64,000 nt of DNA from Flavisolibacter longurius (GTDB lineage Bacteria > Bacteroidota > Bacteroidia > Chitinophagales > Chitinophagaceae). The DNA lies in assembly GCA_013327885.1 (NCBI GenBank), contig JABUMY010000019.1:62001-126000 (forward strand), read 5' to 3'. Made by a program: the position numbers and the translations under genes. Of this stretch, positions 27,583 to 48,029 are shown in pieces. Every line of letters begins with the position of its first letter. The first letter of the stretch is position 1. The notes beneath the pieces were generated by a model. It did not search any database. It had not been told where the DNA came from and worked only from the letters and a program-made list of their open reading frames with translations.

Positions 27583-27612
27583 GATTAGGTTATTAAAAGA
27601 GAATAGGTGTTT

Positions 27613-29439: not shown

Positions 29440-29441
29440 AC

Positions 29442-31568
29442 TTATTTGCTCCATTCTTTTAAAAGCACAATCGAACGGCCTTCAATGGTGATGGTTTTTT
29501 TGGCTGGCACCATCTCGCCGGTTTCTTCAAAGTAATCAATAGCGGTATCAAGGATCTTTGTCCAGCGCCGGCCAAACTTTTGTGGCGGCAGCAGGAAATT
29601 TATCGAATCGTGGTAGGCGTTAAAGATGAGAAAGAAGTCATCGTCAACGATCTTTTCGCCTTTGGGCCCGGGAGATGGAATGGCTTTTCCATTCAGGAAA
29701 ATGCCCAACGTTTTGGCATAGTCATCCCGCCAGTTCTCTTCGGTCATTTGTTCGCCGTCGGGCCTGAACCAGGCGATGTCTTCCACATCAACACCTTTGT
29801 AGGGTTGGCCTTTGAACCAGCGGCGCCTGTTGAATACGGGATGCCGCCGTGCAAAATGAATGATCTTTTTGCTGAAGGTGAGCAGGTCTAAATCAGCAGC
29901 TTCCCAATCTACCCAGGAGATCTCGTTGTCCTGGCAATACGCATTGTTGTTGCCGCCTTGCGTTCGGCCCAATTCATCGCCGGCTACCAGCATGGGCACA
30001 CCCTGTGAAAGAAAGAGCGTGGTTAAAAAGTTACGCACCTGTTTTTTGCGCAGAAGCGTAATGGCCGGCACATCGGTCTCGCCTTCGTAACCGCAGTTCC
30101 AGCTCCGGTTGTGACTCTCGCCATCGTTGTTGCCTTCGCCATTGGCTTCGTTGTGTTTTTCGTTGTACGAAACAAGATCGCGGAGGGTAAAGCCGTCGTG
30201 CGCCGTAATAAAATTGATGCTGGCCGTTGGCTGCCGGTTGTTGTCTTCGTACAGGTCCGGACTACCGGTGAAGCGCAGGGCAAATTCGCCCAGCATGCTT
30301 TCGGCACCCCGCCAATAATCCCGCATGCAGTCGCGGTACTTTCCGTTCCATTCGGCCCATCCGGGCGGGAAGTTGCCCACCTGGTAACCGCCTTCGCCAA
30401 TGTCCCAGGGTTCTGCAATCAGCTTTACTTGCGAGATCACCGGGTCCTGGTGAATGATATCAAAAAAAGATCCCAGGCGGTCTACCTCGTGCAGCTCTCT
30501 TGCCAGCGAGGCAGCCAGGTCAAAGCGAAAGCCATCGACGTGCATCTCCAGCACCCAATACCGCAGGCTGTCCATGATCAGTCGTAGTACCGGCGGCATC
30601 ATGGCATTAAGCGTATTGCCGGTGCCGGTATAATCCATGTAGTACCGCTTATCATCAGTAAGACGATAATACGACAGGTTGTCGATGCCGCGGAACGAAA
30701 GCGTCGGCCCCAGGTGGTTGCCCTCCGCCGTATGGTTGTACACCACGTCAAGGATCACTTCAATACCGGCCTTGTGCAGTTCTTTTACCATGGCTTTGAA
30801 CTCGTACACCTGTTCGCCGAGATAACCCTTGCTGGCGTAGCGCACATCCGGTGCAAAAAAACCAATGGTGTTGTAACCCCAGAAGTTTGTAAGGCCTTTA
30901 TCGGCCAAAAATTTATCCAGCACAAAATGATGAACCGGCATCAGCTCGATGGCTGAAATGCCCAATTCTTTCAGGTATTGAATGGTGACCGGGTGGCCGA
31001 TGGCAGCATAAGTACCACGGATCTCTTCCGGTATGGCCGGGTGCAATTTGGTGAAGCCTTTTACATGAGTTTCGTAGATGATGCTACGGTGATAAGGAAT
31101 GCGCGGCAGCTTGTCGCCTTCCCAATCAAACCGCGGATCGATCACAACTGATTTGGGAATGAACGGCGCACTGTCTGTATCGCTAAAGCTTTGGTCCTCT
31201 TCGGGATGTCCCAATTCATACCCAAAAAGAGCGTCGTTCCAGCTAATGGTTCCGGAGATGGCTTTGGCATACGGATCGATCAATAATTTACTGGGGTTGA
31301 AACGGTGACCGGCCTGTGGCTCGTAAGGCCCGTACATGCGGTAGCCATATTGCTGGCCGGGACCGAGCCCGGGAAGGTAAATATGCCAGATGCCATTGGT
31401 GCGTTCTTTCACCCGTATGCGGGTGGTTTCAACCGTTTCATCCGTTCCGTCAAAAAGACAAAGTTCAACAGCCGTGGCATTTTCACTGAACACGGCAAAA
31501 TTTACTCCCTGTCCGTCCCAATTAGCGCCGAGTGGAAATGGATAGCCTGGATAGCTGGTTACCTTCAT
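29442..31568 (-). CDS. treX: Glycogen debranching enzyme (GlgX/TreX type)
   Basis: The 708-residue GH13 isoamylase-type protein opens with a CBM48-like domain (PLGANWDGQGVNFAVFSENA). It continues with ETHVKGFTKLHP, DVVYNHTAEGN, VDGFRFDLA (nucleophile Asp), LIAEPWDIG (acid Glu) and ITAHDGFTLRDLVSYN. It cleaves alpha-1,6 branches, releasing linear dextrins. As the first gene of the operon it supplies chains to TreY and TreZ. GlgX would be the name in a glycogen context; TreX is preferred here because of its neighbours. Confidence 0.92.
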   Translation of the reverse strand: MKVTSYPGYPFPLGANWDGQGVNFAVFSENATAVELCLFDGTDETVETTRIRVKERTNGIWHIYLPGLGPGQQYGYRMYGPYEPQAGHRFNPSKLLIDPYAKAISGTISWNDALFGYELGHPEEDQSFSDTDSAPFIPKSVVIDPRFDWEGDKLPRIPYHRSIIYETHVKGFTKLHPAIPEEIRGTYAAIGHPVTIQYLKELGISAIELMPVHHFVLDKFLADKGLTNFWGYNTIGFFAPDVRYASKGYLGEQVYEFKAMVKELHKAGIEVILDVVYNHTAEGNHLGPTLSFRGIDNLSYYRLTDDKRYYMDYTGTGNTLNAMMPPVLRLIMDSLRYWVLEMHVDGFRFDLAASLARELHEVDRLGSFFDIIHQDPVISQVKLIAEPWDIGEGGYQVGNFPPGWAEWNGKYRDCMRDYWRGAESMLGEFALRFTGSPDLYEDNNRQPTASINFITAHDGFTLRDLVSYNEKHNEANGEGNNDGESHNRSWNCGYEGETDVPAITLLRKKQVRNFLTTLFLSQGVPMLVAGDELGRTQGGNNNAYCQDNEISWVDWEAADLDLLTFSKKIIHFARRHPVFNRRRWFKGQPYKGVDVEDIAWFRPDGEQMTEENWRDDYAKTLGIFLNGKAIPSPGPKGEKIVDDDFFLIFNAYHDSINFLLPPQKFGRRWTKILDTAIDYFEETGEMVPAKKTITIEGRSIVLLKEWSK

Positions 31569-31727: not shown

Positions 31728-31979
31728 ATGGAAGCGCACAATTCAGCATACGATATTTCGCAATACTGGTTGAAGCTGACGGCTGCACAGCAGGAGTCTA
31801 TTCTTTCGGTTGTGAAAAATTTTGTACTGGCAAACGAAAGCCAAACAGAGGCTACCGTTCTTTCCGCAGAAGAAATGGAAAGAATTTGGAAAGACCGCGA
31901 AGATTACCTGAATGGTATTGGGAAAAACTATTCACGGGAAGAAGCCAGGGCCTACATTTTACGCAATCAAACAAAATGA
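31728..31979 (+). CDS. Antitoxin of a type II toxin-antitoxin pair
   Basis: The ATG at 31728 gives 83 residues; the open frame upstream crosses a repeat and is unlikely to be translated. The C-terminal half is charged (LSAEEMERIWKDREDYLNG...YSREEARAYI), like small antitoxins that fold on their toxin. The N-terminal half (ISQYWLKLTAAQQESILSVVKNF) is a short helical part found in Bacteroidota addiction-module proteins paired with RelE/ParE toxins. The stop overlaps the toxin start (ATGA). The call depends largely on the neighbour. Confidence 0.7.
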   Translation: MEAHNSAYDISQYWLKLTAAQQESILSVVKNFVLANESQTEATVLSAEEMERIWKDREDYLNGIGKNYSREEARAYILRNQTK

Positions 31980-32278
31980 AGTTTCGCATTATTGAAAGGC
32001 AGGAGGCCGTCGATAATGTTTTGCAGGCTTTTAATTGGTACGAATCCCAAAAGGAAGGGCTGGGATTTGCCTTTCTTCAATCGTTAGACCAATTCTATGA
32101 TTCCCTTGAACGCAATCCGGAAGCCTATTCTTTTTTACAGAAACCATTGCGCCAGGGAAAAATTGAAACGTTCCCATATGTTGTTGTATTTGAAATACAG
32201 GATACAACTGTCATAATTTTTAAAATCTTCAATACACACCAGGAACCCGGTAAAAAAATAGGCGGCACAAAATTTTAA
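31976..32278 (+). CDS. RelE/ParE family toxin
   Basis: A 100-residue protein starting at the ATG that overlaps the antitoxin stop. It follows the ParE/RelE fold: ERQEAVDNVLQAFNWYESQKEGLG for the helical hairpin, FLQSLDQFYDSLERNPEAY for the second pair, then strands PYVVVFEIQDTTVIIFKIFNT. In ParE-type toxins the target is DNA gyrase, in RelE-type mRNA on the ribosome; the sequence does not decide which. It is shielded by the upstream antitoxin. The pair may serve phage defence or genome stabilisation. Confidence 0.8.
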   Translation: MKFRIIERQEAVDNVLQAFNWYESQKEGLGFAFLQSLDQFYDSLERNPEAYSFLQKPLRQGKIETFPYVVVFEIQDTTVIIFKIFNTHQEPGKKIGGTKF

Positions 32279-32352: not shown

Positions 32353-33342
32353 ATGAAGTCAAAACAATCTTTCTGGCAACGCATAGGCCTGCATGATTTT
32401 TTTCTGAAAAAGGAAGCCGAACGTACTGACACGGCGCCGCCATCCCTTACACCCAACGATGTGTACCATTATATCATTGAAAAGTTCAGGGAATCGGTCA
32501 AAGACCTTTCGTTTGCCGAACGGGTGGTGTTCTACCACGAATACATCATCTGCCTCAACCCCGACGATTACCGCCTTTTTATGGAAAACAAAAAAGGCAT
32601 TTTTGGTATCATCGTTCACGAATCGCTGAAAAAAATTTACGGCCTGCTGAAGGAATACCGTGCCCTCGGCAAAACGGTGGAACCTTCCGCCAGTCGCTGG
32701 ATCTTTCGCTTTGTTTCGCATCCCGAATACGCCAGCGGCGATATCAGCTTTATCGGTAAGCTGCTCCCCGACAGTGCACCCAATACACAAACGGCCGAAA
32801 ACCTGCGGGTGACCTTTATTCCAAGGCAAACTGGCATTGCACAAACCTTCGACATCAACCCCGATATTTTAAAAGGATTTCATTTTTACAGCGAAGGTTA
32901 TTACGAAGTGCCTTACCGCGAAGACCTGGTGCTCGACGAACGGCAGATCCGGAACACGCCGGGTGCCGCTTCGCCAACAGCAAATGGGTCTGCTGGTGCT
33001 TTAGCACGGTTTGAGACCATTGTGCCCGACAAAGAATTTGCGGGAAAAAAAATCGAATATTTTATGCGGGATGAAACGATCACCGTGAGCGGAAAAGACG
33101 AAACAGCGGAGGGTAGCCAGGTATTCAAGATCCCTTCCGACTGGGTCAATTCGCCCCACTTGAAGATCCGTTTCAGCAAGGACGAAAACAAATTCTTCCT
33201 GGTATCCTTCGGCGAAAAAACAGTGCTGAATGAAAGAGAGGTGGTGCGTTGCAAAGAAGACGCACCGCAGTGGACAGAGTTGCCGTTCAACTCCCGCATT
33301 TTACTTAACGGCATCGTAGGCGTAAACATCTTTAAACCATAA
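32353..33342 (+). CDS. FhaA-like protein: DUF3662-like N-domain plus degenerate FHA-like C-domain
   Basis: This 329-residue cytoplasmic protein opens the envelope-signalling locus. The segment VVFYHEYIICLNPDDYRLF (about 56-74) and the helices after it resemble the N-terminal DUF3662 domain of actinobacterial FhaA (pattern Y-V-L-PEDY-L). The C-terminal 100 residues (from about 230: YFMRDETITVSG, HLKIRFSKDENKFFLVS, ELPFNSRILLNG) have the strand order of an FHA domain but lack the GR and SxxH phosphothreonine-binding residues. So it may bind partners without phosphothreonine recognition. Both calls come from pattern memory, not from a search. The next gene begins 2 bases downstream. Confidence 0.6.
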   Translation: MKSKQSFWQRIGLHDFFLKKEAERTDTAPPSLTPNDVYHYIIEKFRESVKDLSFAERVVFYHEYIICLNPDDYRLFMENKKGIFGIIVHESLKKIYGLLKEYRALGKTVEPSASRWIFRFVSHPEYASGDISFIGKLLPDSAPNTQTAENLRVTFIPRQTGIAQTFDINPDILKGFHFYSEGYYEVPYREDLVLDERQIRNTPGAASPTANGSAGALARFETIVPDKEFAGKKIEYFMRDETITVSGKDETAEGSQVFKIPSDWVNSPHLKIRFSKDENKFFLVSFGEKTVLNEREVVRCKEDAPQWTELPFNSRILLNGIVGVNIFKP

Positions 33343-33344
33343 CC

Positions 33345-33443
33345 ATGTCGGCAGTTATTTCTCTGGTACTCCTGGGTATTTGTGTGTTTATGCTCATTGC
33401 CCATTTTGCTGAAATCAAAAACACCCACAAAAAGAATGGCTGA
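33345..33443 (+). CDS. 32-residue single-span membrane peptide
   Basis: A complete ATG-to-TGA frame begins 2 bases after the FHA-like gene and overlaps the PP2C start by 8 bases. It encodes MSAVISLVLLGICVFMLIAH, one membrane helix of about 20 residues, then a short basic tail (EIKNTHKKNG). The tight packing between two genes of a conserved-looking locus argues for a real small protein that is translationally coupled to the phosphatase. It could be a membrane adaptor or just a coupling device. No homologue comes to mind. Confidence 0.55.
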   Translation: MSAVISLVLLGICVFMLIAHFAEIKNTHKKNG

Positions 33444-34842
33444 ACATTTTTTTGGCCTTACCAATACAGGCAGGATCCGCGACAACAATGAAGACAGTTT
33501 TTTGGCTGAAGCCCTGCCCAATGGCTGGATCGTGGCCTGCGTGATCGACGGCGTTGGTGGGTACGAAGGTGGCGAGGTGGCCGCCGAAATTGCCAGGGAA
33601 ACCATTTACGAAACGGTTCAGCAGCCGGGCAGCGACCCGCAGCAAATGCTCCGGCAAGGACTGCTGAGAGCCAATGCCGCCATCTACAATGAAAAGCTGC
33701 ACAACAGCGGCAAAGAGCAAATGGCTTGTGTGCTGACGGTTGCGCTGGTGGATGTGGACAACAACCAGTTTTATTATGCGCATGTTGGCGATACAAGGCT
33801 TTACCTGCTTCGCGACCAGTCGTTGGTGAAGGTGACGAAAGACCATTCCTTCGTTGGATTTTTAGAAGATAGTGGCCGCCTTACCGAGCAGGAAGCCATG
33901 GCGCATCCCAAGCGAAACGAGATCAACAAAGCGCTGGGCTTCGACCCGCAACTCGAATGGAAGGAAGATTATATTGAAACCGGCTCCTCACCGTTTTTAC
34001 CCGGTGATATGCTGATGCTTTGCAGCGATGGCCTTACCGACCTGGTGAACAACAGGGAAATGACAGGCATCCTGCTTGCCGGCGATTCGCTGGCTGCAAC
34101 AGCAGAAGCCCTTGTGGATGCTGCCAATGTTGCCGGCGGCAAGGACAATATAACGGTGGTGATTGTACGTAACGCCAAAAAGCCGCTGAAAATAAAGGCC
34201 ACCAAACCCGTTCTGTCAAAAAAAAACGAAAGGCGTGAAAAGGTAGTGGCTTCTCCTGATGAGCAAAAAGAGGTAATAACCCAACAAGCAGCACCTTTAA
34301 AAAAACGTAGTAGCGCAATTGTGCCTTTGCTCTTTGTCCTTTGCTTATTGCTGGCAGCGGCCTGTGTTTGGTTGTTTTTGCGGCAACAAAATGGGGAGGA
34401 AAATAACAGGACAGAAACGGCCGTTTATTCACCCAATGCAGGCGAAAAACTGCTGGCCGACAGCCTGGGCATGGCCGTTGGCGCTCTTACGGTTACCGAT
34501 TCACTTTCTGGTAGTCCCGTGATCATTGGCGATACGCTTTTTATTCGCCAGGATACGCTGCGGATCAACGGTAACGGTATGATCCTGCAAAGCGATTCTT
34601 CCTACACCGGTCCTGCATTCTTTGCTACGGTCAACAACAAGGTTCTCTTGCTGGAAAATATCGTGTTCAAAGATTTTGCAACAGCCATTGTCCTGCAAGG
34701 AAGGGGACTGCAACTCCGGAATGTGCAGTTTCTCAACTGTGCCGTACCGGTGTTGCGGCAGGTGCTGTTACCGGCAGAGCAAAGCCTTACCGGCACGCTG
34801 CGTGATACAATGATCCTCAGAAACGATTCGTTACCCAAATAA
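33436..34842 (+). CDS. Membrane-anchored PP2C protein phosphatase with beta-helix-like ectodomain (PstP-like)
   Basis: From the ATG at 33436 the product is 468 residues. Residues 5-246 form a PP2C phosphatase with RDNNED, VIDGVGG (Asp38), AHVGDTRLYLL, LCSDGLTDLV (Asp198) and GGKDNIT (Asp237), all metal ligands intact. A basic linker leads to one membrane span (293-315). Beyond it, residues about 320-468 show short strand repeats with stacked Asn and hydrophobic positions (ILQSDSSY, LLLENIVFKDF, LQLRNVQFLNC), as in a small parallel beta-helix. In actinobacteria PstP removes phosphates from the PknA/B kinases and their cell-wall targets; here the kinases lie 5-8 kb downstream. The ectodomain is not known to me from other PP2C proteins. 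Confidence 0.87.
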   Translation: MAEHFFGLTNTGRIRDNNEDSFLAEALPNGWIVACVIDGVGGYEGGEVAAEIARETIYETVQQPGSDPQQMLRQGLLRANAAIYNEKLHNSGKEQMACVLTVALVDVDNNQFYYAHVGDTRLYLLRDQSLVKVTKDHSFVGFLEDSGRLTEQEAMAHPKRNEINKALGFDPQLEWKEDYIETGSSPFLPGDMLMLCSDGLTDLVNNREMTGILLAGDSLAATAEALVDAANVAGGKDNITVVIVRNAKKPLKIKATKPVLSKKNERREKVVASPDEQKEVITQQAAPLKKRSSAIVPLLFVLCLLLAAACVWLFLRQQNGEENNRTETAVYSPNAGEKLLADSLGMAVGALTVTDSLSGSPVIIGDTLFIRQDTLRINGNGMILQSDSSYTGPAFFATVNNKVLLLENIVFKDFATAIVLQGRGLQLRNVQFLNCAVPVLRQVLLPAEQSLTGTLRDTMILRNDSLPK

Positions 34843-34850
34843 TTCACACC

Positions 34851-37800
34851 ATGGCTTCCTTTATCAGGAGTAGAAATATTGAACGTGTTTTTCTTTTGTC
34901 GCTGGGTGCAGCCCTGCTTTATCTTTTTATCCAGCTGTTTGCCGTGCTCGAAAAAGATTTCCAGGAAGTGCCCAGGCGGTTGGGAGATGGGTCGATGATC
35001 AACCTGAACGATCCCAATACAGCCGATAACCTGGCTGCTTTGCTGCAGAAAGGATTTTATTTTGAAGACCGTCGGGATATTGAGCTGATCCGCTCCGCAG
35101 CCGCGCAAGGCTTTCCCAAGTTTGAAGAGATCGACAACATCGGCGAACTGAATAAAAAGGCCTTTGAAGTCACAACCGAAGAAGCCTATGCAAGAGGTGG
35201 TGAATCGTTTCGCAAACGGGCCAGGCTTTCGCGGGCCCTCGTTGGCTTTAGCGGCAACGATTCGCTGCGCTTTGACATAGAGAAAAAAGCACCACCGGCG
35301 TTGCCGGCAACGGTTGATGTAGCCCTGGGACAACATGCCATCAAAGGAAAGGTGCAAACAAAAGAAGAATCAGCGCTTGGCGGTGTGCTGGTTCGGTTAC
35401 GCATGATCATTCCGCAAGACAGCTTGTACAGTGAATCGGTGCAGGACGAGGGACGAACCGTTCAGCAGAATACGGCTACCTTGCAAAAAACCTTTCGGCT
35501 CGATTCGTTCAACAAGCGGCAGCTGGTTTCCCTTGCTGCCTATGCCCGAACGGATGCCGATGGAAAATTTTCATTCAATGGTCTGCCCGATAACAAAGCC
35601 TATGAACTGATTCCCCTGCAACCGGGTTACCAGTTTGGTTCATCGCAAGGCCTGGAAGAGTTGAAGGAAGACCGCAGTTTCACATTTACCCAGTCGCCGC
35701 ACACCATCCGGCTTTTCTCCACTTATGATTTCAATAACCTGCGCAAGGAAAAAGCACTTATCGTCCGTACACCCGACGAGGTGGCCAAATGGTACTGGAC
35801 CATCGTGATCGTGTTTTTTGCCTCCTTTCTTCTCCTGCACTTTTTTCTTTCGTTTCGCTTTCCAACGGCCGATCAGTTGATCTTGCCCTTGTTGATGTTG
35901 CTCGTCGGTATTTCGTTTCTAACCTTGTTATCATTACAAGACCCGCTCCGGGACCGCTTTTTTGGCAAGAGCACCCTTTTCTTTTTTGTAGGAGGAATGG
36001 TGGGCATCGCTGTGTTGCAGCTTTTTAACCTGCGAAAATTTACTACCGACTCGGGTTTGTTCCGCCTCTTTCTTTTTCGCGGCGATCCGAAGGCTGCCAA
36101 CGGTTGGCCATGGGCGTTAGGTGCCGCCGGCTTGCTGTTTCTTACCATCCTGTTTGGTACAGGCCCGGAAGGCAGCGGTGTAAAAGTGAACCTGTTTGGT
36201 TTCCAGCCCAGCGAGATCGTGAAGTTCCTGCTCATTGTTTTTCTTGCCGGTTATTTTACCGCCAATGAAAAATTTATTTCGGAGTATGGTCGCTGGCAAA
36301 AGCGCTGGCAGTTTTTTGCTTTTGCCCTGATCGCCATCCTGGTCACAATTTTCCTCTTTCTTATTCTTGGTGACCTGGGCCCGGCCATGGTGGCCTGCTT
36401 TACGTTTATTATCCTGTTCTCATTTTCCCGCGGCGATTTTGCCTACGCAGTTGGCACGGCCGCTGTTTATGCCCTTACCATCTGGTTGCTTGATAACAAT
36501 GTTTGGCTGGCAACAGCCATAACGGTTGTACTGCTTGCCCTGGTCATGCTGTTTATAAAAAAGCAACTGGCCGAATCTGCCGTTATGCTGTTGGTGGTAA
36601 TGGCGGGCTTTCTTTTACTTGATAAAGTGCCGCTCCTGGGCAGGTTGTTTCCTGGGCCTATTCAGCGGCTTATCGACCGAAAATCCATCTGGCAGGATCC
36701 CTGGAATAATGAAGTGTACGGCGGCGACCAGATCGCCAACGGTCTTTGGGCCATGAGCAGCGGCGGTGTAGAAGGGCAGGGCATTGGCGAAGGCTTTGCC
36801 AAAACCATCCCTGAAGCGCATACCGATATGATCCTGCCTTCGATGGGCGAAGAGTTTGGCTGGGCCGGTATCATCTGCATTTTTATTGCCTTTTTGATCT
36901 ACCTGCACCGTTCTATCCTAATCGGCCGGCAAACCGGTACACCCTTCCTGTTTTATCTCTGCGCCGGCATTGGCATTTGCACGTTTGTGCAGTTCCTCCT
37001 CATCGCCGGCGGCTCGGTAGGCGCCCTGCCGCTTTCCGGCGTTTCGCTGCCGTTTATGAGTTATGGCGGTTCGTCGCTGATCGCCAATATGCTGGCCGCA
37101 GGTTTCCTGCTTTCAGCTTCTATTATCCAGGGCTCGCCAGTACAAATGAAATACATTGCCCGGCAGCAGGACCGCAACATTATGCCGGCCCTGATCGCAG
37201 CTATCATAGGCGTTACGATGCTGGGTGTCAACATTGGCCAGTACCTTTTCAATCCTTCGCATTGGGTGGTGCAACCGGCGCTGGTGGCCGACCGAAGCGG
37301 TGCCCGTATGTTCAGTTACAATCCCCGCATTGCTGTTTTGATGAACCGCATCGGCGCCGGTAACCTGCTTGACAGGAAAGGACGGGTGCTGGCTACCGGT
37401 AACCCACAGGGGTTTTTGCAGCAGCAGGACAGCCTCATTTCCGCGGGCCTTGACCCGGCGGCTTTGCAAGCCCTTTCGCACAAGCGCCTCGACCGCTATT
37501 ATCCCTTTTACGAATCCATGTTTTTTTGGGTAGGAGATATGAACACCGGCGCTTTTATGGGCAGCACCAATGGCTATTTTGCCGAGTATGAGCACATGGC
37601 CGAATTGCGTGGCTTCCCGGCACCGGAAACAAAGTTTGATGTAAAAGCAAGCCGCTTCCGCGAGAACCGTTTTCTTCCACGGGTTGAAACTGAAATGACG
37701 GTGGCCCGCCGGGATTTCCAGGCATTGGCAACGCTGCTGCTGGCCGGGATCAACAGCGAGGAGGTGGAGAAATTCAAGCAGCGCAACCGCGACGTACACA

Positions 37801-38915
37801 TGACGGTGGATGCAGCCATGCAAACGCAGTTGCAGCAAAGCCTGCAGAACCTGGATACCTTAAAGAACAGTCGCATATCGATTGTGATCATGGAAGACAA
37901 CACCGGCGATGTGCTGGCATCAGCCTCTTACCCGGCAGCCCCTGTGAACGACAGGGAGATGATGTCGCTGACCAATGCCGAGCAAAACAGCCTGCCATAT
38001 TTTATCACCACCGAAGACCTTGGCTTTACCCATGCCACGCAACCTGGTTCTACAGCTAAGCTGATAACGGCAGCAGCCGCCTTCAACAAACTGGGACTGG
38101 CAGCTGCCAAAAAAACCATCGCCGTACGGCCGGGTGACCTTATCCGCACCCGTGGAGAAGAACCCGACGAAGCCGGTAATATTTCCATTCAGCGGGGTAT
38201 TGTTCGCTCCAACAACCCGTTCTTTATCCGCCTGGCCAACGAAGAGCGGCTGGAAGAAGAAATGGGTGATATCTACCTGAAGGCAGGCCTGTTCTTACGC
38301 GGGGTGGGCGGCTATTATTATGACACTGATTTCACCCCAACGGCCCGGCAGGAACGCTGGAAGGACATCTGGCGGGAAACCGAGTTTGCGAGCATCCGGT
38401 CGTACAACCGCAATGACATTCGCAAAACCCGCGGCCGTGGTATTTCGGGTATGGCCTGGGGACAGGGTGAGCTGATTTCCACGCCGGCTTCCATGGCCAG
38501 GGTGGCATCGGCCATTGCCAACGGCGGCACTCTTATGCACAACCGCTATATCTGGAAGATCAGCGATTCCACGCTGCCGATGCAAGAAGGCGTTGCCCTC
38601 TTAAAAGAACCGCAGGCAGCCGCTTTTTTAACCCAATACATGAAAGAGCAAAGCGCCAACAAAGCTGCCCGTCTTGGCCTGGTGGTAGCCGGCAAAACCG
38701 GTACTCCCGAGCGGATTGTGAAAGGCGAACGCATCAACGATGGCTGGTATGTATTTTTTGCCCCAAAAGGGCAGGGCCCCGGCCATGTTGTGGTTTGTAT
38801 CCGCATTGAAAAAACAAGGGGTTCCAGCGTGGCTGTTCGCCTTGCTGGCTCGCATGTGGTTCCGGTTTTAAAGCGTTTTGGTTACGTCAAAAGCTTTGGT
38901 GAGAAGCTGAATTAA
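34851..38915 (+). CDS. Fused SEDS glycosyltransferase (FtsW/RodA) and penicillin-binding transpeptidase
   Basis: A single 1354-residue polypeptide. Residues 12-34 are a membrane span; about 150-260 contain a carboxypeptidase-regulatory-like sandwich (HAIKGKVQTKEE, DADGKFSFNGLP). From about 315 to 795 there is a full FtsW/RodA domain with QPSEIVKF, GDLGPAMV, EAHTDMILPSMGEEFGWAG (Asp659) and PLSGVSLPFMSYGGSS. After a further span, residues about 980-1345 are a class B penicillin-binding transpeptidase with STAK (Ser1067, Lys1070), SNN (1120-1122) and KTGT (1282-1285). Glycan polymerisation and cross-linking are thus physically joined. It starts 8 bases after the PP2C gene. Confidence 0.92.
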   Translation: MASFIRSRNIERVFLLSLGAALLYLFIQLFAVLEKDFQEVPRRLGDGSMINLNDPNTADNLAALLQKGFYFEDRRDIELIRSAAAQGFPKFEEIDNIGELNKKAFEVTTEEAYARGGESFRKRARLSRALVGFSGNDSLRFDIEKKAPPALPATVDVALGQHAIKGKVQTKEESALGGVLVRLRMIIPQDSLYSESVQDEGRTVQQNTATLQKTFRLDSFNKRQLVSLAAYARTDADGKFSFNGLPDNKAYELIPLQPGYQFGSSQGLEELKEDRSFTFTQSPHTIRLFSTYDFNNLRKEKALIVRTPDEVAKWYWTIVIVFFASFLLLHFFLSFRFPTADQLILPLLMLLVGISFLTLLSLQDPLRDRFFGKSTLFFFVGGMVGIAVLQLFNLRKFTTDSGLFRLFLFRGDPKAANGWPWALGAAGLLFLTILFGTGPEGSGVKVNLFGFQPSEIVKFLLIVFLAGYFTANEKFISEYGRWQKRWQFFAFALIAILVTIFLFLILGDLGPAMVACFTFIILFSFSRGDFAYAVGTAAVYALTIWLLDNNVWLATAITVVLLALVMLFIKKQLAESAVMLLVVMAGFLLLDKVPLLGRLFPGPIQRLIDRKSIWQDPWNNEVYGGDQIANGLWAMSSGGVEGQGIGEGFAKTIPEAHTDMILPSMGEEFGWAGIICIFIAFLIYLHRSILIGRQTGTPFLFYLCAGIGICTFVQFLLIAGGSVGALPLSGVSLPFMSYGGSSLIANMLAAGFLLSASIIQGSPVQMKYIARQQDRNIMPALIAAIIGVTMLGVNIGQYLFNPSHWVVQPALVADRSGARMFSYNPRIAVLMNRIGAGNLLDRKGRVLATGNPQGFLQQQDSLISAGLDPAALQALSHKRLDRYYPFYESMFFWVGDMNTGAFMGSTNGYFAEYEHMAELRGFPAPETKFDVKASRFRENRFLPRVETEMTVARRDFQALATLLLAGINSEEVEKFKQRNRDVHMTVDAAMQTQLQQSLQNLDTLKNSRISIVIMEDNTGDVLASASYPAAPVNDREMMSLTNAEQNSLPYFITTEDLGFTHATQPGSTAKLITAAAAFNKLGLAAAKKTIAVRPGDLIRTRGEEPDEAGNISIQRGIVRSNNPFFIRLANEERLEEEMGDIYLKAGLFLRGVGGYYYDTDFTPTARQERWKDIWRETEFASIRSYNRNDIRKTRGRGISGMAWGQGELISTPASMARVASAIANGGTLMHNRYIWKISDSTLPMQEGVALLKEPQAAAFLTQYMKEQSANKAARLGLVVAGKTGTPERIVKGERINDGWYVFFAPKGQGPGHVVVCIRIEKTRGSSVAVRLAGSHVVPVLKRFGYVKSFGEKLN

Positions 38916-39054
38916 TACTAAAGGGATCGTTTGAGAAATTTGGCAAGTAGCCCCGGCCTTTTCTTTGACCTTTTTCTTTTTGTTTGAAAAACTGGACTGT
39001 TTCTTGAATAATGTATCATCATACTTAACGAAAAAAACCTAAGCCGCCATCACT

Positions 39055-39840
39055 ATGTTTGATTTGTTTAAACAAAAAGAAGAAGCCTCGGCTCCGGATG
39101 TCAAAACCACCCGGCACCAACTGTTGCAATTTGTAAAAGAACAATTGCAAAAATGGGAGGGAGGCGAAGGCGCCAACATTCGCGGCCTGCAGCTTTTTTT
39201 AGCGCCGTCGGAAGAAGAGCGTCACCTCTACCAGGCCGCGGTGTACGCCGACCAGGAAGGAAAGTTTAAAGACGAAGAAGTGCAGCGTATATCGGATGAT
39301 TATGCCCTGGACCTGCCGCAGGATTACCAACTGGATATTTTGTTTGTAGAAGCGCTTCCAGGTGAAGCCGTGAAAGCCAGGGATCTGCCGGTGGCACTGC
39401 ATGTGTCCACCCGCAAAAAGCCAACGCTGACGGCCCTGACAAAAGGATTTGTCCGCGTGGTAAATGGAGAGGCCGAACAGGAAGTATATGCGCTTACCGA
39501 CAAAAGCGGGAGGGTTTGTATAGGCCGCGAAAAACGGGTGCAAACATCGGAAGGGTTCATGCGGGAAAACAACATTGCCTTTCCTTCAACAAGCCGCAAC
39601 AATAGCAACAAATACGTCAGTAGGCAGCATGCGCACATAGAATGGAACAAGGATGTAGGTGGGTTTTTCCTGTATGCGGATGAAGGCGGTATTCCGCCCC
39701 GCAACAAGATAAAAGTGCAGACGGCCACCGGAGATATCATCCGCCTGCAATCGACCCACGTGGGCCATCATTTGCAGGAGGGTGACCAGATCATTTTGGG
39801 TGAATCGGCCCTGCTGCAGTTTAGTTATTTGGAGGGATGA
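39055..39840 (+). CDS. FHA domain protein
   Basis: A 261-residue protein. Its C-terminal FHA domain (about 148-258) keeps the phosphothreonine-binding residues: CIGRE (Gly157, Arg158) and VSRQHAHIEW (Ser189, His192), followed by NKIKVQ and LQEGDQIILGES. The N-terminal half (about 20-120; LQLFLAPSEEERHLYQAAVYAD) is another alpha/beta unit that may be a divergent DUF3662 domain. Unlike the FHA-like protein at 32353, this one should read phosphothreonine, most simply on the kinases encoded next to it. It lies 139 bases after the FtsW-PBP gene. Confidence 0.85.
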   Translation: MFDLFKQKEEASAPDVKTTRHQLLQFVKEQLQKWEGGEGANIRGLQLFLAPSEEERHLYQAAVYADQEGKFKDEEVQRISDDYALDLPQDYQLDILFVEALPGEAVKARDLPVALHVSTRKKPTLTALTKGFVRVVNGEAEQEVYALTDKSGRVCIGREKRVQTSEGFMRENNIAFPSTSRNNSNKYVSRQHAHIEWNKDVGGFFLYADEGGIPPRNKIKVQTATGDIIRLQSTHVGHHLQEGDQIILGESALLQFSYLEG

Positions 39841-39843
39841 GAG

Positions 39844-40023
39844 TAGGTTGATTGGTTGATGAGTTAATAGGTTAATGGGTTAACAAGTTAGAAGGTTAAT
39901 AGGTTAGTAGGTTGACGGGTTGAATGGTTGAATTGTTGATGGGGTGAAAGGACAATGTGTGATAAATGATCTGCCTGTTTTGTATTAAACCTAGTAACCA
40001 ATTAACCAAATGACTTATTAACT
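39844..40023. repeat. Word-like repeat array (GGTTAATA / GGTTGATG family) with inverted tail
   Basis: About a dozen GGTT-based words (GGTTGATT, GGTTAATG, GGTTAATA, GGTTAGTA, GGTTGACG) follow one another from 39846 to 39947. After a 36-base spacer the complement appears (39984-40023: AACC, AACCA, ATTAACC, TTATTAAC). It fills most of the gap between the FHA gene and the first kinase. It looks telomere-like but is interstitial and irregular. Confidence 0.75.
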
Positions 40024-40055
40024 AAAAAACGCCGTCACTATAAAAACAACAGACC

Positions 40056-41756
40056 GTGTCAAAAGTGTTTATGATTACTGAGGGGTTAGAGAACATGGGT
40101 GCCATTAAAACAGGTGGCCAGGGTTCGGTGTACAAAGGCAAGCGGGTGGGAGAGATCATCACGGCCATCAAGCTTTTGCCAACGCCCATTCTTTCCCCCG
40201 ATGAAAACAATGCTCACTACCGTGATTTTACCAACGAAGTAAAAAAGCTGCAGCGGGTAAACGAAGAGCCCAATCCCAACATCGTTAAATTTCTCAGCTA
40301 CGGCGTCAGCGAAACCGGAGCCTTTCCGTTCATCGAGATGGAGTACATCGATGGACCCGATCTTGGCGAACTGCTGAAAGAGCCGGGTACGCCGCTATTT
40401 ACCGTTAAAGAAGTGATACGGGTTGCCGAGCATCTTTCGCATGCACTGGCGCATTGCCATAAGCTGGATGTAAAGCACGGCGATATCAAAAGCAACAACG
40501 TAAAATACAACCGTCACACCGGTAACTACGTGCTGCTTGATTTTGGCCTGGCCATTCTTTCCGATGAAGAGCGACGCACATCACTACGGCACGCCGGTGC
40601 CATTGAATTTATGGCGCCCGAGCAAAACGAGGGGCGCATGTTCTTTCAAACCGATGTGTACAGTTTTGGCATTGTACTTTACGAATTGCTTGCGGGCAAA
40701 GTGCCTTTCCCGCTTGATGGCAACAGCGAAACGGCCCGCAACCGCGTGATGGTTGCCCACATGGAAACACCGCCACCAGACTTGCTGTCGCTGCGGGCTG
40801 CCGCCCTGCCAGCTGACTGGCCGGAAAATAAAAAAGCACTGGAAATGCAGGTGCCGGAGTGGTTGCTGAAACTGGTGTACCGATGCCTGGAAAAAAAGCC
40901 GGAAGACCGTTTTACTAACGGTATTGAGCTGCATGAATTTATTTGCCAGCATCACCTGTATACCGCCGAAGTTGCCGGCATTGTGCAAAACGAAGACAAC
41001 AAATGGCAGGCGGTAATTGCTGAAAAAGACTACGAACTGCAGGACCTGAAAGCCATCGTTTCCAGGCAGGATAAAGAGCTGCAGATGATGCGGCAAAAAA
41101 GTTTTCAGCCGCAGACGGAGCCTGTGGAAATAAAAAGAGGCGTTTCGCGATCGGCTTTTAATGCGGTGTTGCTGCTGCTCTTTGTAGTGGGTGCGCTTGC
41201 TGTGTACGGACTCTTCTTTAACCGTCCCGTTGTTGGTGGTGTTACCACGGGATCGCTTTCAAAAAAATCTGCGACTTCAGGCAACGACTCGGAAACCGAA
41301 AACCGCATTTCTGAAAACAGTGGTGCAGCAAAACAGCCGGAAGAAAAAAAGGACAAGCCCGTCGCAACAAAAGAAACATCACCACTCACTAAAAAAGAAA
41401 TTGCTGTTGGCGAAACCGGTGTAAAAACGGAACAAACTTCCGCACAAAAAGATTCCGCTTCTTCACCCAATACCGATAGAGCCGAAGACAATGAGACGGC
41501 AACCGAGGACGAAGCGGAAGATCCGGTAAAAGCGCCGGTGAAAAAAACGGATCATTACAAAGTTCGTGACAAGGCTTATTTCCACAATGAACCGGATGCT
41601 GCCACCAAACGCAGGGCCTTTATCATTCATTGGAATGATGCGATCCTGGTTCCACAGGATGAGAAAAACGGCTTTATCTATGTTGTATTTACCAACCACC
41701 TGGGCCAGGTAAGCCGCGGTTGGCTGTCAAAAAATGACCTGGAAAAAGTCAATTGA
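40056..41756 (+). CDS. Membrane Ser/Thr protein kinase with SH3-like ectodomain, paralogue 1
   Basis: The start is the GTG at 40056, supported by alignment with the next gene (MSKVFMITEG against MAKVFTITEG). In the 566 residues, 1-300 form a kinase: glycine loop TGGQGSVYKG (19-28), Lys39 in AIKLL, HGDIKSNN (Asp143, Asn148), DFG (162-164) and MAPEQ. The catalytic loop reads HGD, not HRD. A coiled region leads to a membrane span (368-388), then a Ser/Glu/Lys-rich disordered linker and a terminal SH3-like domain (about 498-563: DKAYFHNEPD, GWLSKNDL). The layout matches PknB kinases except that SH3-like replaces PASTA. Confidence 0.88.
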   Translation: MSKVFMITEGLENMGAIKTGGQGSVYKGKRVGEIITAIKLLPTPILSPDENNAHYRDFTNEVKKLQRVNEEPNPNIVKFLSYGVSETGAFPFIEMEYIDGPDLGELLKEPGTPLFTVKEVIRVAEHLSHALAHCHKLDVKHGDIKSNNVKYNRHTGNYVLLDFGLAILSDEERRTSLRHAGAIEFMAPEQNEGRMFFQTDVYSFGIVLYELLAGKVPFPLDGNSETARNRVMVAHMETPPPDLLSLRAAALPADWPENKKALEMQVPEWLLKLVYRCLEKKPEDRFTNGIELHEFICQHHLYTAEVAGIVQNEDNKWQAVIAEKDYELQDLKAIVSRQDKELQMMRQKSFQPQTEPVEIKRGVSRSAFNAVLLLLFVVGALAVYGLFFNRPVVGGVTTGSLSKKSATSGNDSETENRISENSGAAKQPEEKKDKPVATKETSPLTKKEIAVGETGVKTEQTSAQKDSASSPNTDRAEDNETATEDEAEDPVKAPVKKTDHYKVRDKAYFHNEPDAATKRRAFIIHWNDAILVPQDEKNGFIYVVFTNHLGQVSRGWLSKNDLEKVN

Positions 41757-41836
41757 TGGCTATTCTTTTCCTGCAGTGCTTGTTAATTCCACTGCCTGTT
41801 TCCGTGCGGTATGCCCCTGCGTCTTAAATTTACGCA

Positions 41837-43753
41837 ATGGCAAAAGTGTTTACCATAACGGAAGGCCTGGAAAATATGGGTGCCCTCAAAACCGGGGGGC
41901 AGGGTTCTGTATACAAAGCAAGGCGAACAGGAGAGATCATCACCGCAGTAAAGCTGCTGCCCACACCAATCTACAGCGAAAGCGAACAGGATAAGAATTT
42001 TATATCGTTTCAGAACGAAGTAAAAAAGCTAAAAAAAGTAAACGAGGAGCCCAATCCCAACGTGGTGAAGATCCTCAACTATGGCGTCACGGATTCAGGT
42101 TCATTTCCCTTTATCGAAATGGAGTTTATTGAAGGTCCCGACCTGGAAGAACTGCTCAAAGCACCCAATGAACCCATTTTCACCATCAAGGAAACCCTTC
42201 GTCTTGCCGAGCATCTTTCGCATGCGCTGGCGCATTGTCACAAAGTGGATGTAAAGCATGGCGATATCAAAAGCAACAATGTAAAATACAACCGTCATAC
42301 CGGTAACTACGTGCTGCTTGATTTTGGCCTTGCGGTCATGAGTGACGAGCAGCGACGTACATCACTACGGCACGCCGGTGCCATCGAGTTTATGGCACCG
42401 GAACAAAGCGAAGGGCAATTGCTGTTTCAAACCGATGTGTATGGTTTTGGTGTGATCCTTTTTGAATTGCTGGCCGGGCAGGTACCGTTTCCGTTGAAGG
42501 ATGGCAGCGAATCGGCAAGGAACATGGTGATGCTGGCCCATTTGGAGGCCACGCCGCCCGACCTGAAAGAACTGCGGCGGCAAAACCTTCCTGATGCCTG
42601 GAGCGCCGATAAAAAAGAAAAAGAGCTGCAGGTGCCGGAATGGCTGCTGAGCCTTATTTACCGCTGCCTGCGCAAAAAACCCGAGGAGCGATTTGCCAAC
42701 GGGAACGAGTTGTACAATTTTATCGTGTCGAGCAGCGTGGCTGTGCAGCGGGCCGAGATCCTTTCTGATCACAACCCTTGGCAGTACCAGGCTGAAAAAC
42801 TGTTAAAAGAAAAGCAGCAGTTGCAGCAGCAACTGGCGCAAAAAGATGCGGAGTTGCAGCGCTTGCGGTCACAGCCCGTGCTGGATGGCCCCGAACGCAT
42901 TCCCGGCCAGGATGATTACAGGGGCAACCGCAAAAAAAACACAGCGTGGATCGCGGCTTTCCTGGTGACCTTGCTGGTGGCCAGCGGTTTGGCTTATGCG
43001 CTGATTGCATCTTCGAAGGAGGAGAAAAAACCGCAGCAGCAAACTGAAACACCGGTGACCGCTATTCAGCCGCCACGGCAAACATCACCAATGGGCGTTT
43101 ACCGGGTAACGGCTGCCAAAACATTTTTTCATAACAAGCCGGAACCCAGTACACGCCGCAATGCGTTTTTATCAAAAGGCGACCCGATTACTGCACTTGA
43201 CGAGCAGGCGGGCTTTGTGTACACCGAGTTTACCAATAGCCGCGGACAAACCTCAAAGGGTTGGCTGCGACTGGACAACCTGCAAACGCAGGATGAATGG
43301 GATGCACAGAAGTTGCAGGAGCAGAACCGTCCGCCCACCCAGGAAGAAATCAGGACGCAACTTACCATGGCAACCGGTTACCTGCGGACAAATCAACTGG
43401 AAGAAGCACTTACCATCTATAATTTTCTTACGCCGTTTGATGTGCCCGAAGCTTTGTACCAGGCAGGAAATTTAGCCTTGCAGGCTAAAAATAGCGCCAT
43501 CAATTGCACCGAAGGCCTGCGTATGGTCAACCGGGCCAGCGACCTAGGTTACCTGCCGGCCAAACGTACACTTGGTGTGTTGCACCTCTTTGCCGAAAAC
43601 CCGGCCTGGCTGCAGATAAATGGCTACAACCAGTGCGTTTACAACAAAGACATTGGCAAGGCCCGGCAGTTGCTGACGCAGGCAGCCAACGGCGGTGACA
43701 CCACAGCCCGCCAGCTACTGGATGAATTAAACCTTAGTAATCCACCCGAATAA
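41837..43753 (+). CDS. Membrane Ser/Thr protein kinase with SH3-like and Sel1/TPR-like ectodomain, paralogue 2
   Basis: A 638-residue paralogue of the preceding kinase, aligned without gaps over the first 190 residues with Lys39, HGD (141-143) and DFG at the same positions. The DNA near 42290-42400 is almost identical to 40510-40620, so the pair arose by tandem duplication, perhaps with gene conversion. A Gln-rich coiled coil (315-345) precedes the membrane span (369-391). Outside are an SH3-like domain (420-482; AKTFFHNKPE, GWLRLDNL) and a helical TPR/Sel1-like region (505-635; EEALTIYNFL, GYLPAKRTLGVLHLF). The latter is absent from paralogue 1. Confidence 0.88.
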   Translation: MAKVFTITEGLENMGALKTGGQGSVYKARRTGEIITAVKLLPTPIYSESEQDKNFISFQNEVKKLKKVNEEPNPNVVKILNYGVTDSGSFPFIEMEFIEGPDLEELLKAPNEPIFTIKETLRLAEHLSHALAHCHKVDVKHGDIKSNNVKYNRHTGNYVLLDFGLAVMSDEQRRTSLRHAGAIEFMAPEQSEGQLLFQTDVYGFGVILFELLAGQVPFPLKDGSESARNMVMLAHLEATPPDLKELRRQNLPDAWSADKKEKELQVPEWLLSLIYRCLRKKPEERFANGNELYNFIVSSSVAVQRAEILSDHNPWQYQAEKLLKEKQQLQQQLAQKDAELQRLRSQPVLDGPERIPGQDDYRGNRKKNTAWIAAFLVTLLVASGLAYALIASSKEEKKPQQQTETPVTAIQPPRQTSPMGVYRVTAAKTFFHNKPEPSTRRNAFLSKGDPITALDEQAGFVYTEFTNSRGQTSKGWLRLDNLQTQDEWDAQKLQEQNRPPTQEEIRTQLTMATGYLRTNQLEEALTIYNFLTPFDVPEALYQAGNLALQAKNSAINCTEGLRMVNRASDLGYLPAKRTLGVLHLFAENPAWLQINGYNQCVYNKDIGKARQLLTQAANGGDTTARQLLDELNLSNPPE

Positions 43754-43786
43754 GGTGGGTGGAACAGCGTTTGAATGGATACAAGC

Positions 43787-44290
43787 ATGAACAAGTTGCT
43801 CACTGTACTCGTTTCCTTTACTCTACTGGTTGCCTGCAACCAGCAAGCCGGTCAAAGCAAGGTGGTAGAAAAGGATTCTGTAGCGCCGCGATACTTTTAT
43901 TTTCCCAAAGCCAATGTATACATTGATTCTGCCAATAACCAGTTTCTTTTTTTAGCTACGGATGGAAAAACCTGGCAAACCGCGGAACAGATCCCGGCTG
44001 CCATGCAGGGCCTGATGGATAAAAATGTTTACATCGAAAACCCTTCGCAGCCTGTTTGGCAGGACAATGAATCGCACCGACTGGTATATTCGGCCCTGCT
44101 TTATGCCACGGCCAATGACACCACGAAAAAGGTAGCGCCAAAGCCAACCGTCAGTGCCCAGAAACCGGTAAAAGACACCGTGGAAGCCGAAAAAGAACGC
44201 AAGGGCATCGGCAAATTCTTCAATAAGATCTTCGGCAAGAAAAAGAATAAGCACAAGGCTGAAGAAGAGCCAAAAGATCAGCAAGAATAG
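43787..44290 (+). CDS. Lipoprotein at the end of the kinase locus
   Basis: With the ATG at 43787 (another lies 4 codons before) the product is 167 residues with a short lipoprotein signal ending LLVAC (Cys17). A small beta-rich domain (about 35-110: RYFYFPKANVYIDS, PVWQDNESHRLVYSALLYA) follows, then a Lys/Glu-rich tail (KFFNKIFGKKKNKH). It begins 33 bases after the kinase stop on the same strand and is likely part of the transcript. I know no function. It may be a periplasmic partner of the SH3-like ectodomains, but that is only position-based. Confidence 0.65.
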   Translation: MNKLLTVLVSFTLLVACNQQAGQSKVVEKDSVAPRYFYFPKANVYIDSANNQFLFLATDGKTWQTAEQIPAAMQGLMDKNVYIENPSQPVWQDNESHRLVYSALLYATANDTTKKVAPKPTVSAQKPVKDTVEAEKERKGIGKFFNKIFGKKKNKHKAEEEPKDQQE

Positions 44291-46986: not shown

Positions 46987-47490
46987 ATGGCCGAGCCTTT
47001 TTTATCCGAGATCAGGCTTTTCTCTTTCAACTTTCCACCGAAAGGCTGGGCACTTTGCAACGGGCAATTTCTTCCCATCAATCAAAACCAGGCGCTGTTT
47101 GCTTTGCTGGGCACCACGTACGGCGGCAACGGGCAAACCAACTTTGCCCTGCCTAATTTCCGGGGAAAGGCACCCATTCATTTTGGTACCGGGCATACCC
47201 TTGGCGAAACAGGAGGGCAGGAGGCGCAAACCATTACGATGCAGCAAATGCCGACGCATACACACCGTGTTACAGCCACCAGCAACCCGGCAACAACCAC
47301 CAATCCCAGTGGTAACATGCTGGCCGACACCAAGCCGTCAGAATTGTATCATCCAACAGACGGCCAGGTAGCCATGGGACCTACTATGGTAACGAATATT
47401 GGCGGCAGCCAGCCGCACCAAAACATGCAGCCCTTTTTGGCTTTAAATTTTTGCATTGCCCTGCAAGGCATTTTTCCCAGTCCAAATTAA
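46987..47490 (+). CDS. Phage tail collar domain protein 1 (MdpB/microcystin-dependent protein type)
   Basis: The 167-residue protein starts MAEPFLSEIRLFSFNF and carries the tail-collar signature GWALCNGQFLPI (about 19-30) and LGTTYGGNGQTNFALPNF (37-54). It ends in PHQNMQPFLALNFCIALQG. The fold is that of the foot domain of phage short tail fibres. In bacteria such genes come in groups of two to four and are named microcystin-dependent proteins; their role is unknown. It lacks a signal peptide. Next to it lie two paralogues, 12 and 5 bases apart, all on the plus strand. Confidence 0.85.
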   Translation: MAEPFLSEIRLFSFNFPPKGWALCNGQFLPINQNQALFALLGTTYGGNGQTNFALPNFRGKAPIHFGTGHTLGETGGQEAQTITMQQMPTHTHRVTATSNPATTTNPSGNMLADTKPSELYHPTDGQVAMGPTMVTNIGGSQPHQNMQPFLALNFCIALQGIFPSPN

Positions 47491-47502
47491 ATTTCAAGAC
47501 CT

Positions 47503-48024: not shown

Positions 48025-48029
48025 TTTTT

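Follow-up and report, generated by a model that had tools for sequence, protein, structure and literature searches.

A fused SEDS-PBP protein in a conserved FHA-kinase-PP2C cassette of Flavisolibacter longurius and other Bacteroidota

Known systems and the locus under study

PMC6554272 describes loci of Actinobacteria and Firmicutes that link Ser/Thr kinases with the building of the cell wall. It also states that the linkage of pstP, rodA, pbpA and the gene of the PASTA kinase is conserved throughout Actinobacteria, and that pknB and fhaA are linked in a subset of Firmicutes. In mycobacteria, PbpA is a substrate of PknB, and FhaA acts on MviN after transphosphorylation by PknB, according to PMC3989709. 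The loci of Tsukamurella and Actinomyces oris follow the order DUF3662-FHA, FHA, PP2C, RodA, penicillin-binding protein (PBP), kinase, PknB; the Tsukamurella PP2C is unannotated in its record and was found in this analysis. Here we describe a related cassette from Bacteroidota, built around a fused SEDS-PBP protein. It is located at 32353-44290 of a 64,000-nucleotide stretch of the Flavisolibacter longurius genome (GCA_013327885.1, contig JABUMY010000019.1, positions 62,001 to 126,000), called the window below; the whole host genome measures 5.75 Mb. No description of this Bacteroidota cassette was found in the open-licence PMC literature. Its parts, its conservation, its intact catalytic motifs and the grouping of its SEDS half are established at the level of sequence. 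We think it likely that the locus encodes an accessory peptidoglycan synthase together with a phosphorylation switch that serves it, that its core shares ancestry with the FHA-linked SEDS-PBP systems of actinobacteria and clostridia, and that it was inherited as a cassette.

The features of the locus are listed below. Related loci are the best 80 of 244 relatives from an 84,980-species collection, chosen by their SEDS-PBP.

32353..33342, + strand: FHA-1 (FhaL1), 329 aa (structure model; 78/80 related loci)
33345..33443, + strand: 32-residue single-span membrane peptide (hydropathy; 69/80 related loci at E up to 0.1)
33436..34842, + strand: PP2C phosphatase with one span and a periplasmic C-terminal domain (PF13672, hydropathy)
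34851..38915, + strand: SEDS-PBP, 1354 aa (PF01098, PF00905, motifs, 13 hydrophobic stretches)
39055..39840, + strand: FHA-2, 261 aa, an N-terminal domain and a canonical FHA (PF00498, structure model)
39844..39948, + strand: degenerate short tandem repeats of period 8, 16 or 24 between FHA-2 and kinase 1 (Tandem Repeats Finder)
40056..41756, + strand: kinase 1, 566 aa, HGD-type Ser/Thr kinase (PF00069, hydropathy, alignments)
41837..43753, + strand: kinase 2, 638 aa (PF00069, hydropathy)
43775..44290, + strand: lipoprotein, 171 aa, with an LVAC lipobox read by eye (open reading frame; 11/80 related loci)

A first-pass annotation of this DNA had described a one-strand set of eight genes with short gaps, and the description held. 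All eight open reading frames (ORFs) are on the + strand in the order FHA-1, membrane peptide, PP2C, SEDS-PBP, FHA-2, kinase 1, kinase 2, lipoprotein, with successive intergenic gaps of 2, -8, 8, 139, 215, 80 and 21 bases. The profile search that it had proposed was run with Pfam and identified PP2C, SEDS and transpeptidase in one chain, FHA in FHA-2 and Pkinase in both kinases, while FHA-1 and the lipoprotein had no Pfam or NCBIfam match at E up to 1. The tiny membrane peptide of that annotation was also found, and it is widely kept at the loose threshold given in the list. The lipoprotein is present as described, but its low count in the related loci marks it as a loosely tied passenger.

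The fused SEDS-PBP protein, its conservation and its probable descent

The 1354-residue protein carries a SEDS domain (PF01098, 2e-46) and a transpeptidase domain (PF00905, 1e-22) in one chain, and the same fusion is present in congeners. It begins with an N-terminal span and a periplasmic stretch of about 280 residues; the SEDS part comes next and is followed, after a further span, by the PBP. The stretch after the first span had weak transthyretin-like matches (CarboxypepD_reg, 0.0046, below cut-off). The active-site motifs are found at positions 654 (PEAHTD), 1066 (GSTAK), 1120 (SNN) and 1282 (KTGT). Among the 80 related loci, truncated copies included, SNN was retained in every one, PEAHTD and K[TS]GT in 79 each and PG[ST]TxK in 78. 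The match to PF01098 together with this conserved His-Thr-Asp region, the Asp of which is presumably catalytic, identifies the first half as a SEDS protein, and the match to PF00905 with SxxK, SxN and KTG motifs identifies the second as a class B PBP. The protein is 91% identical to the SEDS-PBP of Flavisolibacter longurius in the species collection. The host genome also has a separate FtsW (contig C33) and a separate RodA (contig C11) with PBP2 beside it. The SEDS-PBP cassette is extra to the host's own RodA-PBP2 and FtsW.

The related loci are all titled Bacteroidota and include Flavisolibacter, Segetibacter, Ferruginibacter, Ginsengibacter, Cnuella, Mucilaginibacter, Pedobacter and Hufsiella. 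PP2C was found in all 80, FHA-2 in 79, FHA-1 in 78, a kinase in 75, the peptide in 69 and the lipoprotein in 11. When only the 61 loci with more than 23 kb were considered, FHA-1, PP2C, FHA-2 and the kinase were each present in 61/61 and the lipoprotein in 9/61. The first-pass annotation had called for such a survey to tell a true gene set from a chance cluster; the core genes stay together, and chance clustering is unlikely because the locus is conserved and matches to FHA, Pkinase and PP2C are rare in the genome (2 FHA, 5 Pkinase and 3 PP2C_2 in a whole-genome Pfam search). Seven neighbours from the window were followed in the same 61 loci: treZ, glgX and an old-yellow-enzyme gene were found in two loci each, one more gene in one, and no locus had the toxin-antitoxin ORFs or the tail-collar gene. 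The cassette, not the surrounding region, is conserved. Within the genus Flavisolibacter the fused protein was found in 16/18 genomes, in two of them broken at contig ends, and the two genomes without it are 78% and 62% complete. The 15 congeneric loci besides the window all have FHA-1, PP2C and SEDS-PBP; FHA-2 and the kinase are present in 13/15 (in the two loci without them the contig stops short), the peptide in 11 and the lipoprotein in 10. One congeneric SEDS-PBP copy with an internal TGA was left out of the alignment.

Two lineages of the cassette were distinguished, lineage 1, to which the window belongs, and lineage 2, and their gene order was compared in ten and five loci, respectively. 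Lineage 2 has the order FHA-1, PP2C, kinase(s), SEDS-PBP, FHA-2, with FHA-2 found in three of the five loci. In the comparison as a whole, the PP2C of one locus (L078) was missed by the overlap filter. The membrane peptide was found in 10/10 lineage-1 loci and 0/5 lineage-2 loci. The SEDS-PBP proteins of the five lineage-2 loci share 39-41% identity with the window protein. A sixth lineage-2 cassette, which includes FHA-2, is carried by the 137-kb plasmid unnamed7 of Spirosoma oryzicola, a sign that the cassette is mobile.

The SEDS halves were compared in a maximum likelihood tree of 44 rows, 13 of which were fused Bacteroidota proteins (seven of lineage 1 and six of lineage 2). The actinobacterial loci were taken from plasmid-collection records, and the Arthrobacter RodA, which is broken in its record, was left out. 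A split supported at 100/95 placed the 13 fused proteins, six RodA proteins of actinobacterial loci and one clostridial FHA-linked SEDS on one side and 24 others (RodA, FtsW, SpoVE) on the other side. The same split was found in a second tree of 47 rows with changed outgroups, for which the Rhizobium and Fusobacterium rows were removed and five rows added. The parallel with the actinobacterial locus that the first-pass annotation had drawn from gene content therefore goes beyond it. In approximately unbiased (AU) tests, union of the fused SEDS with Bacteroidota RodA was rejected (p 0.00016 in each of two tests), as was union with Bacteroidota FtsW (p 0.027 and 0.026), while union with actinobacterial RodA alone was not rejected (p 0.39).

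The PBP half was analysed in a tree that held one of the six lineage-2 proteins (five were missed by a motif cut), five actinobacterial PBPs, and FtsI rows from two of four regions, none of them from the host genome. Union with Bacteroidota PBP2 was rejected (p 0.013) and union with FtsI narrowly so (p 0.041); the p value was 0.39 for union with actinobacterial and clostridial PBPs and 0.07 with actinobacterial ones alone. In a 15-row tree the PP2C proteins of both cassette lineages formed one clade (99/99). The kinase and PP2C trees gave no resolved link to PknA/PknB or PstP; these trees did not contain the host kinase and PP2C of L208, and the host copies that were included had very long branches. 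Since the SEDS half groups with the RodA of the actinobacterial locus and the AU tests reject unions with host-type proteins, it is probable that neither RodA nor FtsW of the host gave rise to the core. The sequence comparisons argue for common ancestry of the core with the actinobacterial and clostridial systems, by transfer or by old inheritance.

The signalling proteins

The structure model of FHA-1 (predicted local distance difference test, pLDDT, 72.6) has an N-terminal domain at residues ~34-136 with the element order helix-strand-helix-helix-strand-strand and an FHA fold at residues ~215-329. The latter was matched in a predicted-structure search with Z 14.7 (root mean square deviation 1.9 over 101 residues), and the match to the FHA domain of mycobacterial FhaA, 3oun, had Z 12.6. 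PF00498 matched 5/14 members of the alignment of FHA-1 relatives (best 2e-5; the matching rows are unnamed in the table). FHA-2 matched PF00498 at 2.2e-4, and its model (pLDDT 85.7) gave an FHA-fold match with Z 15.3. The first-pass annotation had reported an FHA protein with intact phosphothreonine residues, and this is FHA-2, in which IGR, SRxH and Asn are all intact and are kept in 79/79 related proteins. Its modelled N-terminal domain shows the same order of elements as that of FHA-1. The matches listed for both models were FHA domains almost throughout.

FHA-1 had also been credited with a DUF3662-like start, and here the FHA fold stood while the start was not confirmed by the Pfam FhaA_N model (PF12401). 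In the host genome this model matched nothing up to an E value of 10, and in 18 genomes carrying FhaL1 it matched four weak places, none of them at FhaL1; a scan of viral contigs for FhaA_N found none. A global hhalign alignment of the FHA-1 N-domain with five actinobacterial FhaA_N sequences scored 19.9 over 99 columns, a value reached by 0/150 column shuffles (maximum 8.3) and by 7/213 real decoy windows (other parts of the alignments made for this analysis), all from one PBP region. In local mode the decoys reached 40 versus 23 for FhaL1, and reversed FhaA_N reached 20.6. The FHA-2 N-domain found no match with hhalign, nor did the N-domains of FHA-1 and FHA-2 match each other. With an FhaA_N hidden Markov model, FHA-1 relatives had a median of 2.0 bits, a level reached by 7/330 other length-matched ORFs; without length matching, the median rank of the FhaL1 copies was 138.5 among 1208 scored of 2028 ORFs and the best rank was 3. 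Since the FhaL1 copies are kin, these ranks come close to one observation. In the reverse search with an FhaL1 N-domain profile against 690 actinobacterial ORFs, the Tsukamurella FhaA was third (E 14) and no other FhaA was in the top 12. The FhaA N-domain structure 2LC0 was not among the fold matches listed, which carries no weight, the lists being filled by FHA-domain matches. No single score is significant, and the DUF3662 likeness of the FHA-1 start is suggestive.

The phosphatase matched PF13672 (2.1e-14) and NF033484 (2.5e-60, below that model's own cut-off) and has one span at approximately residues 295-313 by hydropathy. Its start overlaps the end of the membrane peptide by 8 bases, and a longer frame with a GTG start at 33382 is possible. 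The periplasmic C-terminal domain is perhaps a beta-helix; a Pect-lyase match at 0.099 was below cut-off.

Kinase 1 (PF00069, 6.6e-34) has a cytoplasmic kinase domain, one span at 370-388 and, by inspection, a periplasmic SH3b-like end. Kinase 2 (PF00069, 3.6e-33) has the same layout with a span at 372-390 and an SH3b-like stretch followed by a further C-terminal region. No Pfam family listed at E up to 0.05 backs the SH3b reading of the kinase tails, and the tails have no solved relative; the reading comes from inspection together with one sub-threshold NCBIfam match, TIGR04211 SH3 in kinase 2 (0.0021, below cut-off). Both are Hanks-type kinases with the Lys, HxD and DFG elements; the related kinases have HGD in 119/120 and DFG in 120/120, HGD being the lineage-1 form and HRD that of lineage 2. 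The sensor kinase seems, from the sequences, to be exchangeable between the cassette lineages. The first-pass annotation had stated that the actinobacterial kinases sense muropeptides. A PASTA domain was found in 1/23 kinases scanned (21 of them from Bacteroidota) and in neither window kinase. The table does not name the bearer, which must be the Tsukamurella PknB, the only member of the set annotated with PASTA. Because the Bacteroidota kinases scanned are without PASTA, it cannot be assumed that they sense muropeptides in the known way.

By eye, the periplasmic tails of three lineage-2 kinases (L072, L073, L074) resemble jelly-roll carbohydrate-binding domains. Two further kinase-PP2C clusters were seen in the host genome, at C17:341-4254 and C51:188632-190377, and the former holds its only other Pfam FHA match.

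Possible working, alternatives and comparison with known systems

From these parts we infer a working in which the phosphorylation targets, the signal, the direction of control and the role would be as follows. The SEDS half of the fused protein would polymerise lipid II and the PBP half would cross-link the strands. A periplasmic or envelope cue would act on the tails of the membrane kinases; with PASTA in only 1/23 kinases, taken as the Tsukamurella PknB, the Bacteroidota kinases must read this cue in another way. The kinases may then phosphorylate cytoplasmic threonines of the synthase, of themselves or of partners, and FHA-2 would bind the phosphothreonine and, assisted by a second adaptor, FHA-1, would switch or place the synthase. 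FHA-1 and the small membrane peptide could hold the complex, and the membrane PP2C would reset the switch.

Several observations weigh against an accessory synthase of this kind with an actinobacterial or clostridial kinship. NCBIfam scored the SEDS part as more FtsW-like (162 bits) than RodA-like (144 bits), both far under cut-off, and its best solved-structure match is a canonical FtsW. Within the 20-row SEDS group, the link of the fused proteins to the actinobacterial or clostridial SEDS is supported at only 60/29. With 1.63 and 1.01 changes per column, the SEDS branches are long, so that some mutual pull between them is possible. The best PBP tree does not group the fused PBPs with the actinobacterial ones, although their union was not rejected. 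The kinase trees do not assign the cassette kinases to a family at depth, and the kinases differ between the two lineages and form no resolved joint clade. FHA-1 of the window lacks the usual phosphothreonine-binding Arg and Ser; VNxxH was found in 63/78 lineage-1 proteins, VSxxH in six, VDxxH in two and no such motif in seven, while the alignment of lineage-2 proteins showed Arg and SxxH kept in 5/5 rows. FHA-1 of the window lineage has probably lost phosphothreonine binding. As to spread, FHA-1 was found in 11/147 genomes of the family (8/100 genera), 9/395 of the phylum and, with a wider profile, 10/395 of the class.

The cassette is accessory and patchily spread. Most relatives lack it, which speaks against a general checkpoint, and the cell-wall growth checkpoint of the first-pass annotation was an overstatement; its scattered distribution, and the presence of RodA-PBP2 and FtsW elsewhere in the genome, favour an accessory synthase. 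A special case of this reading is a stress or drug-tolerance synthase, the output of which is raised when the usual synthases are blocked. Such a role would suit a cassette that is accessory, patchy, plasmid-borne in Spirosoma and extra to RodA-PBP2 and FtsW, and we consider it a minority possibility, rather unlikely in this specific form.

The first-pass annotation had left the choice between transfer and independent assembly. In the latter case, Bacteroidota would have joined a duplicated RodA-PBP2 (or FtsW-FtsI) of their own to kinases and FHA proteins, and the actinobacterial likeness would be convergence. The lack of a resolved kinase or PP2C link to PknA/PknB or PstP, the single PASTA kinase among 23, the silent Pfam FhaA_N model and the different gene orders of the two cassette lineages would all agree with this. 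For the synthase, however, the AU tests reject the Bacteroidota RodA, FtsW and PBP2 and narrowly FtsI, and the SEDS half groups with actinobacterial RodA at 100/95. The lineage-1 order FHA, PP2C, SEDS, PBP, kinase is also the actinobacterial order, the second FHA gene apart. Independent assembly is therefore disfavoured for the synthase and improbable as an account of the locus; transfer is allowed, and old inheritance with loss fits as well.

That the signalling genes serve another system, such as secretion or a polysaccharide, and are merely co-transcribed with the synthase is slightly less probable still: in other bacteria type VI secretion is under the control of FHA-kinase-PP2C sets, the PP2C tail is perhaps a beta-helix and some lineage-2 kinase tails look like carbohydrate-binding folds, but no type VI family was found by Pfam among the 17 window proteins scanned (three of which are phage tail collar proteins), none of the seven neighbours recurs in more than 2/61 loci, and the synthase is inside the cassette in both lineages.

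A ParE-type toxin gene (PF05016, 3.9e-5) is directly upstream of the cassette at 31979-32278 (+), preceded by a possible antitoxin ORF that ends at 31979; a relative is beside the cassette in one congeneric locus (L034) and in 0/80 related loci. Three large genes at 23371-31568 (-), judged by their translations, look like genes for trehalose synthesis and for glycogen debranching and are beside the cassette only in close relatives, glgX being kept there in 4/15 congeneric loci. On the other side are three small proteins in tandem at 46987-48542 (+), each with a phage tail collar domain (PF07484, 1e-27 to 1e-28), relatives of which are near the cassette in one congeneric locus (L041) and in 0/80 related loci, and a 1674-aa protein at 49438-54462 (+) that bears a sorting tail of the type IX secretion kind (PF18962, 6.5e-6, slightly short of its cut-off).

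A broader and more tentative view can be put forward, to which we give somewhat less than even weight: a third SEDS class besides RodA and FtsW may travel with FHA, kinase and PP2C across Gram-positive and Gram-negative phyla, and in Bacteroidota it would be a single-chain polymerase-transpeptidase on a mobile cassette that exchanges its sensor kinases between lineages and retains the synthase, the PP2C and the FHA adaptors. A Gram-negative version with a SEDS protein from the same group would suggest that phospho-control came along with the enzyme. A SEDS-PBP that is a single chain in nature lends itself to studying how both halves are coupled and switched. Among the hosts are many named isolates with sequenced genomes, from Flavisolibacter, Mucilaginibacter and Pedobacter, and they are not known to be harmful. 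As the cassette is not universal in its Bacteroidota hosts, deletions should be possible, whereas the mycobacterial kinases are essential.

Compared with known systems, the cassette shares with the type VI secretion module the same three types of signalling protein, but here the likely substrate is a cell-wall synthase; locus L212 is a type VI secretion cluster with a PP2C. Like the canonical RodA-PBP2 and FtsW-FtsI pairs it combines a SEDS glycosyltransferase and a class B PBP with the usual motifs; those pairs differ in being separate polypeptides on the other side of the SEDS split, with no adjoining phospho-signalling genes as far as read. In the clostridial operon of Monoglobus pectinilyticus an FHA gene is beside SEDS and PBP genes, the SEDS protein belongs to the same group, and no other PBP scanned from outside Bacteroidota matched the profile as well as its PBP did (63.6 bits); there the SEDS and PBP genes are separate, and no kinase or PP2C is annotated within 5.7 kb. 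The actinobacterial fhaA-fhaB-pstP-rodA-pbpA-pknA-pknB locus has two defining features that the cassette lacks, a separate RodA and PbpA instead of a fusion and a PASTA kinase, PASTA not having been seen on the Bacteroidota kinases. It differs further in that FhaA_N is not established in the cassette, that the second FHA gene has moved and a tiny membrane peptide is present, and that the cassette is accessory and patchy while the actinobacterial linkage is stated to be conserved throughout its phylum. The two are nonetheless of one kind: both unite two FHA proteins, a membrane PP2C, a SEDS protein, a class B PBP and kinases in one direction, with SEDS proteins that fall in one group and in nearly the same gene order.

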